From contig JANQFW010000091.1 in the NCBI GenBank assembly GCA_028277625.1, positions 1 to 53,466 of the forward strand: a stretch of DNA of 53,466 bases, written 5' to 3'. The position numbers and the translations under genes are program-made. Shown here piece by piece: positions 45,510 through 50,492 of the stretch; position 1 is the stretch's first letter; the number at the start of each line of letters is the position of its first letter. Below the pieces are notes generated by a model. The model ran no database searches, was not told the DNA's origin, and was given only the letters and a program-made list of their open reading frames with translations. This stretch comes from Candidatus Gastranaerophilales bacterium (GTDB taxonomy: Bacteria > Cyanobacteriota > Vampirovibrionia > Gastranaerophilales > JANQFW01).

Positions 45510-45603
45510 ATCTAATCAGTTTTCTGTCTTAACCTCTTAATTAATTTTTTTATCTTAATTGTTATTATTTATAAGAAATTCAGAAGAAAAGGAAAAGAAA
45601 GAA

Positions 45604-47772
45604 ATGAGCAAAGAACTTGACTCAATTATGCGACCAAAATCAATTGCTATTGTTGGAGCAACTGAAAGAGAAGGCTCTGTCGGGAAGGAAATAACAGAAA
45701 AACTTATAGACTATGGTTTTAAAGGTGACTTATATCCAGTAAATCCAAAATCTGAAACAATTTTTTCAAATAAAGCATATAAAAGTATATTAGATATACC
45801 TGGCAACATTGATCTTGCTGTTATTGTTATTCCAAATAAATTTGTATCTGGAGTAATCGATCAGTGTGGAAAAAAAGGCATTAAAGGAGTTGTTATTATT
45901 ACAGCAGGCTTCAAAGAGTCCGGCCATGATGGTGCTGTATTAGAAGATGAAATAGTTGCAAAACTTAAAAAATACGGAATTAGAGCTGTTGGACCAAACT
46001 GCTTAGGCGTATTAAATTCTGAAGAAGATATTAAAATGAATGCTACATTTGCTGAAGCAGTTCCTATGACAGGCAAGACAGCATTTGTGTCCCAATCAGG
46101 TGCTCTAGGTGCAGGCATCTTAAATATATCTAAAGACGTAAACGTTGGAATCAGCCACTTTGTATCTATTGGCAACAAAGCTGATGTTAACGGTGAAGTT
46201 TTACTAGATTATTGGGAAGATGATAAAAACGTTGATTTAGTTCTATTATACCTTGAGTCTATTTTAGATCCTCAAAACTTCAGAAACTTATCCAGCAGAA
46301 TTTCTAAGAAAAAACCTATTATCGCGGTTAAGTCCGGCAGATCAAGTGCCGGTGCAAAAGCTGCATCTTCTCATACAGGCTCATTAGCAGGCGCAGATTT
46401 AGCTGCAGATGCTTTATTAAAACAAAGTGGCGTAATTAGAGCCAACTCGATGTTAGAAATGTTCCAAATGGCTCAAGCTTTCTCTAACTGCCCTGTACCA
46501 AAAGGTAACAGAGTAGCTATTATGACAAACGCTGGCGGTCCTGGAATCATGGCTACAGACGCTCTTTGCGAAAATGGTTTAGAAATTGCAGAAATTAAAA
46601 AAGAAACCAAAGATTACTTAACAAGTTTTTTACCGGACGCTGCAAGTGTTAATAACCCTGTTGACATGATTGCAAGCGCTCCTGTAGATCACTATAAAAA
46701 GACATTAAAATCATTAATTACTGATGAAAACGTAGACGTTATAATGGTTATATACCTACCATTAATGGGCTTAAAACCTATGGATGTTGCTAAAGCTATA
46801 ATGGAAATTAAAGCAGAAAATCCAGAAAAACCAATTTTAGGCGTATTTATGGCAGAAAAAGAATTCTTTGCTGACTTAACACATGTTGATACAAACTTAC
46901 CATTCTATCAGTATCCTGAAGAAGCAGCATTTGCTATTTCTAAGTTAGACTATTACCGTCAATGGTTAGCAAGACCAGAAGGTACAAAGCCTAATTTTGA
47001 TGTTGATGAAGAAAAAGCTAAAGGTATTATAATAGGTGCCTTAAAAGAAGGCAGAGATCAGCTTACAACTTTAGAGTCTATTGATGTTCTTGATGCTTAT
47101 GGTATTAGAACATGTAAATATGCTTTTGCTAACGGTGCTGATGAAGCTGCTAAAGAGGCTAACAAAATTGGCTACCCTGTTGTAATGAAAATTACATCAA
47201 CTAAAATTTCTCACAAAACAGAAGTTGGCGGTGTAATTGTTGGCATCAACAGCGAAGCTGAATTAAGAGAAGAATATAAAGGTCTAATTGAAAGACTAAA
47301 AGAGCGTAACTTGGAAAATGCACTTGATGGTGTTATTATCCAAGAGATGGTTAAAGGTTCAAGAGAAATGGTATGTGGTATAGCTACAGACCCTCAATAC
47401 GGACCAATGATGATGTTCGGTTTAGGCGGTATTTACATTGAAACAATTAAAGACGTAACCTTTAAAATCAATCCACTAACAGATGTTGATGCTAAAGAAA
47501 TGATTGAATCAGTGAAAGCTTACGAGATCTTAAAAGGTGCAAGAGGTACAAAACCTGCACAAATGGATCAAATCCAAGAAACCATCCTAAGACTTTCTCA
47601 ATTAGTAAGCACATTTAGCTTTATTGATGAGCTAGATATTAACCCATTAAAAATATCAGAAAAAACCGGCGAAGGCGTTGCTGTTGACGGTCGTATTCAA
47701 GTAAGAATGAAAGAAGCTAAAAAAGCACTTGGACTAAGCTGCTGTGGCTGCGGTTGCAAGTGTTCTAATTAA
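45604..47772 (+). CDS. ADP-forming acyl-CoA (acetate-CoA) synthetase, fused alpha-beta
   Basis: About 722 residues. The alpha part (about 1-460) begins SIAIVGATEREGSVGKEI (CoA-binding fold) and contains a phosphohistidine region AASSHTGSLAGAD with the His near residue 257. The beta part (about 490-715) is an ATP-grasp domain. Such enzymes turn acyl-CoA, ADP and Pi into acid and ATP, so they can conserve energy in fermentation. I choose ATG 45604 (MSKELD); the longer frame begins at a TTG (45559) and adds a low-complexity Lys/Glu segment. The protein ends in SCCGCGCKCSN, a tail with five Cys that is not usual in this family. A UUCG-loop terminator follows. Confidence 0.82.
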   Translation: MSKELDSIMRPKSIAIVGATEREGSVGKEITEKLIDYGFKGDLYPVNPKSETIFSNKAYKSILDIPGNIDLAVIVIPNKFVSGVIDQCGKKGIKGVVIITAGFKESGHDGAVLEDEIVAKLKKYGIRAVGPNCLGVLNSEEDIKMNATFAEAVPMTGKTAFVSQSGALGAGILNISKDVNVGISHFVSIGNKADVNGEVLLDYWEDDKNVDLVLLYLESILDPQNFRNLSSRISKKKPIIAVKSGRSSAGAKAASSHTGSLAGADLAADALLKQSGVIRANSMLEMFQMAQAFSNCPVPKGNRVAIMTNAGGPGIMATDALCENGLEIAEIKKETKDYLTSFLPDAASVNNPVDMIASAPVDHYKKTLKSLITDENVDVIMVIYLPLMGLKPMDVAKAIMEIKAENPEKPILGVFMAEKEFFADLTHVDTNLPFYQYPEEAAFAISKLDYYRQWLARPEGTKPNFDVDEEKAKGIIIGALKEGRDQLTTLESIDVLDAYGIRTCKYAFANGADEAAKEANKIGYPVVMKITSTKISHKTEVGGVIVGINSEAELREEYKGLIERLKERNLENALDGVIIQEMVKGSREMVCGIATDPQYGPMMMFGLGGIYIETIKDVTFKINPLTDVDAKEMIESVKAYEILKGARGTKPAQMDQIQETILRLSQLVSTFSFIDELDINPLKISEKTGEGVAVDGRIQVRMKEAKKALGLSCCGCGCKCSN

Positions 47773-47804
47773 AAACTTATAAAATAAGTTTAAAAAAATA
47801 TAAC

Positions 47805-47833
47805 AAAAGACTGTTCTTCGGAGCAGTCTTTTT
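47805..47833 (+). terminator. Terminator with a UUCG tetraloop after the acyl-CoA synthetase gene
   Basis: Stem agactgttc/gagcagtct closed by TTCG, followed by TTTTT. An unusually stable hairpin for this genome. Confidence 0.9.
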
Positions 47834-47944
47834 GTGTTCAATAGATTTAAGTAAAATTTTTTTTATTATGCATTAAATATGCTTAACTTTTTATTAAATA
47901 TAATTTATCATATAAAAACAATCACCAACAACAGGAGATAAAAA

Positions 47945-48055
47945 ATGGGCAAATGTAGCTGTGGACTAACCAAAAAAGAAAATAAGTGCGATGGCAGCTG
48001 TAAAAAAGCTAAAAAAGATAAGAAAAAAAAGAAAAAAGACAAGAAAAAGAAATAG
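47945..48055 (+). CDS. 36-residue CDGSH-like iron-sulfur mini-protein with poly-Lys tail
   Basis: A short gene with ATG at 47945 preceded by AGGAG (caacaggagataaaaa). The product reads KCSCGLTKKENKCDGSC, then a tail almost wholly Lys. The spacing C4-x-C6-x8-C15-x3-C19 and the residues G7-L8-T9 and D16-G17-S18 match the CDGSH iron-sulfur signature C-x-C-x2-(S/T)-x3-P-x-C-D-G-(S/A/T)-H. Two positions differ: the Pro is Asn and the ligand His is Cys. CDGSH proteins hold a [2Fe-2S] cluster through three Cys and one His; here four Cys would do it. It lies between two terminators (47805-47833 and 48089-48132), so it is a single-gene transcript, 230 bases before the feo operon. Confidence 0.7.
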   Translation: MGKCSCGLTKKENKCDGSCKKAKKDKKKKKKDKKKK

Positions 48056-48088
48056 ATTTAATACTTTTTAAGATTTTAAAAAAATACA

Positions 48089-48132
48089 AAAACAAGTTTT
48101 TTGCTAAGCAATAAAGCAAGAGGCTTGTTTTT
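48089..48132 (+). terminator. Terminator after the CDGSH-like gene
   Basis: Outer arms aaaacaag (48089-48096) and cttgtttt (48124-48131) enclose an inner ttgct/agcaa stem, with T-rich end. Confidence 0.6.
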
Positions 48133-48230: not shown

Positions 48231-48249
48231 ATTGAGAATAATTCTCAAT
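48231..48249 (+). promoter_or_regulatory. Fur-box-like operator before feoA
   Basis: ATTGAGAATAATTCTCAAT is a perfect 19-bp palindrome around a central A. It has the AGAAT/ATTCT core style of Fur/PerR-family boxes and lies about 15 bases after the -10. A Fur-type repressor with iron would block transcription here. Confidence 0.7.
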
Positions 48250-48284: not shown

Positions 48285-48500
48285 ATGGTAGCTTTATCTG
48301 AAATGAAAATTGGTCAAGAGGCAGAAGTACAATCATTTATGGACTCTGATATTAAGTGTTATTCAGCCAGATTTGGAATAGAAGAAGGACAAGTGGTAAG
48401 ATGTATAGCAAAGCCAGGCGCTATTGTTTTGCAAAAGAATACACAAGAAATAGCAATCGGCAAAAAACTTTGTAAGGAAATACGTGTAAGGGTAATATAA
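48285..48500 (+). CDS. feoA: Ferrous iron transport protein FeoA
   Basis: 71 residues, an SH3-like beta-barrel that assists FeoB at the inner membrane. MVALSEMKIGQEAEVQSF opens as in the family, and IAKPGAIVLQKNTQEIAIGK gives the middle. It ends directly before the ATG of feoB (no gap). Controlled by the promoter and Fur-like box upstream. Confidence 0.88.
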   Translation: MVALSEMKIGQEAEVQSFMDSDIKCYSARFGIEEGQVVRCIAKPGAIVLQKNTQEIAIGKKLCKEIRVRVI

Positions 48501-50342: not shown

Positions 50343-50492
50343 ATGACTGAAAAAGAAAAAGACTTAAAAGTAACCTGTTCAACCTGTGGTGCAAAGCTAA
50401 GTCAAGACTTTATGGGAAAAAAATGCCCAAGATGCAACAATGTAATTATTCCACAGCAATGTGAGTTTTGTAACAAAAACTGCACACAGTAA
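50343..50492 (+). CDS. 49-residue zinc-ribbon protein, third gene of the feo operon
   Basis: ATG 50343 with AAGGAG 8 bases upstream. The product has VTCSTCGAKL (C12, C15), KKCPRCNN (C28, C31) and QQCEFCNKNC (C40, C43, C47), so one full zinc ribbon plus a third Cys pair. It sits where FeoC or a small Cys-rich accessory protein is found in other feo operons, but it does not look like FeoC's winged helix. The third Cys pair could bind iron or zinc. Role unknown. Confidence 0.7.
   Translation: MTEKEKDLKVTCSTCGAKLSQDFMGKKCPRCNNVIIPQQCEFCNKNCTQ

Follow-up and report, generated by a model that had tools for sequence, protein, structure and literature searches.

The window, a stretch of 53,466 nucleotides from a Gastranaerophilales genome (2.9 Mb in 146 contigs), carries on its plus strand at 47945-48055 an open reading frame (ORF) encoding MGKCSCGLTKKENKCDGSCKKAKKDKKKKKKDKKKK, 36 amino acids plus the stop codon. 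As an earlier note on this DNA had read it, the peptide has cysteines at residues 4, 6, 15, and 19 (spacing 2, 9, 4) and a CDGSC sequence; its tail is rich in Lys and Asp. The four-Cys motif (CxCGLT-KKENK-CDGSC, residues 4-19, 47954-48001) was found once in the whole window and in none of 100 dinucleotide shuffles. AlphaFold2 modeled the peptide as a loop followed by one helix spanning residues 15-35 (mean pLDDT 81, pTM 0.42), and the Lys-rich tail (48002-48052) is the predicted continuation of that helix. A Foldseek search of the PDB with this model gave no match, which says little at 36 residues.

A Shine-Dalgarno sequence, AGGAG (47933-47937), lies 7-8 nt before the ATG at 47945. Two plus-strand hairpins with U-runs flank the gene: one at 47803-47835 (-16.5 kcal/mol, z -5.1), with a UUCG loop, likely terminates the acyl-CoA synthetase gene that lies upstream, and one at 48088-48132 (-19.1 kcal/mol, z -5.4) likely terminates the peptide gene, although a simple terminator scan flagged neither. 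Because strong U-run hairpins stand on both sides and AGGAG precedes the start codon, the gene looks monocistronic, in agreement with the ribosome site and terminators listed in the earlier note. A possible but weak promoter, TTAACT-17-TATCAT, was found at 47883-47911 (plus strand), such matches being near chance in number (5 found versus 3.4 expected); a TATAAT is also present at about 47900.

Upstream of the peptide gene, members of the window's genus have one gene for a radical SAM protein and one for a protein resembling ADP-forming acyl-CoA synthetases; downstream lie two genes that, by eye, we take to be feoAB. In the window, feoA lies at 48285, and the distance of 230 bases given by the earlier note was correct. 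That note had also suggested an iron or sulfur store, or a cluster donor, working with the Feo system. In both genomes of the genus, feoAB indeed follow the peptide gene on its own strand, but the gene has its own terminator-like hairpin, a further small ORF intervenes before the feo genes in the sister species, and no feo gene was recognized among the neighbors of the peptide gene in carriers outside the genus. Moreover, a perfect Fur-box-like palindrome, TGAGAATAATTCTCA (48233-48247, outside the peptide gene; also at L048:3870), was located directly before feoA in both species of the genus and before the peptide gene in neither, which is evidence against co-regulation. The sequence evidence thus argues against co-transcription or co-regulation with feoAB, and one metal site per peptide would make a poor store, so that we regard partnership with FeoAB as very improbable. 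The acyl-CoA synthetase-like protein (45559-47772) ends in a putatively metal-binding Cys-rich tail, LGLSCCGCGCKCSN, which reads GVGCCGCGCKCSK in the sister species, and a 49-aa ORF after feoB (50343-50492) has CxxC pairs (CSTCGAKLSQDFMGKKCPRCNNVIIPQQCEFCNKNC) and resembles a small zinc-ribbon protein.

The homologous small ORFs that the earlier note had proposed to look for in related genomes were found. A profile built from residues 1-24 detected the peptide gene in 8 of 286 Gastranaerophilales genomes, namely both members of the window's genus plus 6 of 10 genomes from a second family, f3; among Candidatus Riflebacteria, 4 of 40 genomes carried it. When 84,980 species genomes were scanned for MGKCxCG...CDG-x-C, 10 loci were returned, all from Gastranaerophilales/Melainabacteria (one under the bare title "Cyanobacteria bacterium") and Riflebacteria. 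Over these two phyla the four cysteines, Gly7, Asp16, Gly17, and Ser18 were invariant, the segments MGKC, CG, KK, and KCDGSCKK were kept in 11 aligned sequences, and the tail was very basic in all relatives. Among 11 relatives, pN was 0.06 and pS about 1.0 (near saturation), giving a pN/pS of about 0.06. Judged by this substitution pattern, the ORF is a real gene under strong purifying selection. One Riflebacteria copy (G401, L058 around 8943, minus strand) has AAG in place of the start ATG and a diverged tail, and is either a decayed gene or a sequencing error. No family matching the window peptide was found in PHROGs or NCBIfam, and tblastn with the peptide found no match in the plasmid and phage collections, a result of little weight given so short a query.

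The spacing of 2, 9, 4 had been likened to that of mitoNEET. This is true of the window copy, but every relative, including the sister species of the same genus, has 2, 8, 4 (CxCGLSKKD-KCDGSC), the window copy having one extra Asn codon. Most simply, the extra codon would be a recent insertion, so that the exact mitoNEET spacing would not be ancestral to the family.

We then compared the peptide with proteins of known structure. When residues 1-24 were searched against all PDB chains, four hits were obtained at E up to 10, and all were CDGSH proteins, with 6avj (CISD3 with CDGSC, chain reading CVCGRSKKQPFCDGSC) as the best match at 1.6e-5 and 4ooa (NAF-1 with CDGSC) also among them; the family profile gave six hits, all CDGSH or CDGSH-like, at best 3e-5. 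From their CDGSC sequence, 6avj and 4ooa are presumably engineered His-to-Cys mutants. Since these searches returned CDGSH proteins alone, with CDGSC forms near the top, reading the peptide as a CDGSH loop is well supported. Within the class, the nearest canonical protein, a tandem CDGSH protein, has WCSCGLSKKQPFCDGSH where the window has KCSCGLTKKENKCDGSC, and loop 1 of human CISD3 matches the peptide at most of the 16 motif positions. The structural non-ligand residues [ST]9, D16, G17, and S18 are kept. The peptide has in common with PF09360 proteins (mitoNEET, NAF-1, MiNT/CISD3, and bacterial tandem CDGSH proteins) the C-x-C-G-x-[ST]...C-D-G-S loop with three ligand cysteines, the conserved S/T, D, G, and S, and a helix that begins at D-G-S. 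The SEC-C zinc motif, CxCGSGKKYKxCC/H, was also considered for its likeness to C-x-C-G-x-[SG]-K-K and was rejected, because its last ligand is spaced differently and the PDB search returned no SecA chain.

The peptide nonetheless departs from known CDGSH proteins in several respects. Relative to the consensus C-x-C-x2-[ST]-x3-P-x-C-D-G-[SAT]-H (PMC5859297), all members have Cys for His and lack the Pro, and all except the window copy are one residue shorter between the second and third Cys, so that the geometry may differ. Neither the window peptide nor five relatives matched Pfam zf-CDGSH (PF09360) at E up to 10. Whereas the NEET fold consists of a beta-cap and a cluster domain arranged as a dimer or in tandem, the peptide has a single motif, a modeled loop plus one Lys-rich helix, and no beta-cap, which makes the NEET dimer fold, as known, impossible for it; family members measure 29-36 aa, compared with about 60 to over 200 aa in CDGSH proteins. 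Hence, of the minimal CDGSH-type protein proposed in the earlier note, the relationship is sustained by the exclusively CDGSH hits in the PDB, but the peptide falls outside the class as drawn by Pfam, the consensus, and the beta-cap. No canonical CDGSH protein above the cut-off was found in the carriers checked, and canonical two-motif CDGSH proteins (frames of 231-237 aa) occurred in 6 genomes of the order, from families other than those of the carriers.

According to a review, all known NEET proteins have 3Cys:1His ligation, in which the His makes the cluster labile, and replacing it with Cys makes the [2Fe-2S] cluster more stable and brings its potential down toward that of ferredoxins (PMC6006223), in agreement with the stabilization given in the earlier note. 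The engineered all-Cys mutants (H87C mitoNEET and H114C NAF-1; 4ooa, and 6avj in CISD3) share CDGSC and four cysteines with the window peptide, but they are full-length dimeric or tandem domains, whereas the peptide is natural and stands alone.

Natural Cys-for-His forms were also present in phages. Pattern scans of IMG/VR for C-x-C...CDG-x-C returned 30 and 13 contigs; at nine loci among these, short ORFs (34-45 aa) were clearly of the CDGSH type, and the other matches look like chance frames. Examples of the Cys form are MRKLINIKDICSCGKSKKMPMCDGTCLKQPKKGK (L099), MKKCTCGNSKSMPMCDGTCSKKAKRKPLTIKKNAKSR (L108/L121), and MKKTIYKTKDLCTCGKSKTPPMCDGSCAKCGCAKCRKK (L119). L108 combines the full CDGSH spacing, the Pro, and a Lys-rich tail with Cys as the fourth ligand, and in a single BLASTP comparison it was 46% identical to the window peptide over 37 aa (E 1e-6). 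The His form was far commoner in IMG/VR (at least 120 in the scan), and more than half of the His-form proteins examined were below 60 aa. Near relatives of L108 carry His, such as L130 (MKKCTCGKSKNMPFCDGSHCPSTKRKQLKIRK), and in both L108 and L130 the peptide gene is flanked by head-assembly and major-head genes. This shared arrangement suggests that a His-to-Cys switch likely occurred inside one phage lineage.

Like the window peptide, the one-motif CDGSH/CDGTC micro-proteins of phages (L094, L099, L101, L108, L119, L130, and others) are short (24-59 aa), place the motif a few residues from the start codon, and end in a charged or Lys-rich tail; several also share Cys as the fourth ligand, though most have His. 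They differ in their canonical 2-9-4 spacing, the retained Pro, and a match to zf-CDGSH, the Cys forms falling just under the cut-off (4e-6 to 8e-5 for the five phage micro-proteins that were run), and several, unlike the window peptide, are encoded within blocks of phage head or packaging genes. Viral contigs commonly carried one-motif CDGSH micro-proteins of 24-59 aa (IMG/VR loci L128-L207), some of their genes lying between phage scaffold and major head genes.

In some bacterial relatives the gene comes after or within a nitrogenase-like operon. In four f3 genomes, it touches or lies near such a cluster: it follows one nitrogenase-like component-1 gene in G009 and G031, lies close between component-1 genes in G023, and stands between two such genes, further apart, in G018; in G003 and G021 it is found elsewhere, away from the cluster. 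PF00148 genes were detected in six of the eight carriers of the order, adjacent to the peptide gene in four. A general tie between the peptide and nitrogenase-like enzymes was rejected, because the window's genus and all Riflebacteria carriers had no PF00148 genes and three genomes with nitrogenase-like genes lack the peptide. In three Riflebacteria carriers, the peptide gene follows genes recognized by eye as presumably encoding a 2-oxoacid:ferredoxin oxidoreductase, RsfS, and RsmE. Separately, environmental Gastranaerophilales were seen to carry a nitrogenase-like H-D-K set (L051:12088-14458, L050:432-1961, L054:93-2856, L049:3-3072, and L084:4761-8599), composed of a NifH-like protein below the nifH cut-off and two distant component-1 proteins. 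This set falls far below the cut-offs of every NCBIfam nitrogenase, DPOR, COR, and CfbCD model and is possibly an undescribed reductase; G003 carries a further, more nif-like cluster (L093).

The peptide is best read as an all-Cys micro-CDGSH protein that probably binds [2Fe-2S]. We infer the cluster type, a carrier role, and the partners as follows, and hold the whole reading at about even confidence. The loop that binds the cluster in a CDGSH protein would have given rise to a stand-alone micro-protein, with Cys 4, 6, 15, and 19 holding a metal center, most likely [2Fe-2S], at the N-terminal end of the Lys-rich helix. Cys in place of the labile His would make the cluster more ferredoxin-like, that is, more stable and of lower potential, and the peptide, small and soluble, would most likely carry electrons or clusters in probably anaerobic, Fe-S-rich cells, where its basic tail may dock on acidic partner proteins or RNA.

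The main rival is a basic, ribosome- or RNA-associated micro-protein that binds zinc, in which a Cys4 knuckle would hold zinc and the Lys-rich helix would bind RNA. Small zinc ribosomal proteins such as bL36 are of comparable size and charge, the tail is very basic in all relatives, and the three Riflebacteria genes follow the presumed genes for RsfS and RsmE, both ribosome-related. However, the resemblance is specific to CDGSH loops and extends to non-ligand residues (S/T, D, G, and S), the PDB hits at E up to 10 included neither bL36 nor zinc-ribbon chains, no Pfam family matched, and the neighbors elsewhere are redox enzymes; this explanation thus appears unlikely, though far from negligible. 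Less probable still, and doubtful in our view, is convergence, by which a metal-chelating or thiol peptide serving another metal or redox stress reached C-x-C-G...C-D-G-S-C independently. The 2-8-4 spacing of the family, the missing Pro, the lack of a Pfam match, and a sequence too short for proof of descent are consistent with it, but the motif agrees at the majority of its 16 positions with loop 1 of human CISD3 and with the canonical protein of the same class, and this, together with the phage micro-proteins as intermediates, argues for descent from a CDGSH loop.

The earlier note knew of no description of such a minimal form, and likewise no open-access paper was found with both CDGSH and CDGSC, nor any on CDGSH in phages; since the search was limited to open-access papers, this absence is weak evidence. 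More tentatively than for the single peptide, we suggest that one-motif CDGSH micro-proteins may form a class not described before, frequent in phages and found in a few bacterial lineages, where the labile His may have changed to Cys more than once to give the smallest natural four-Cys [2Fe-2S] proteins; these would serve redox enzymes such as nitrogenase-like reductases in bacteria and be made from structural-gene operons in phages. A natural Cys form, kept by selection in both phyla and with counterparts in phages, would mean that nature made the stabilized variant known so far only from mutants, and that a CDGSH loop does not need the dimer fold to exist. As a peptide of 36 residues can be synthesized, the question is directly testable.
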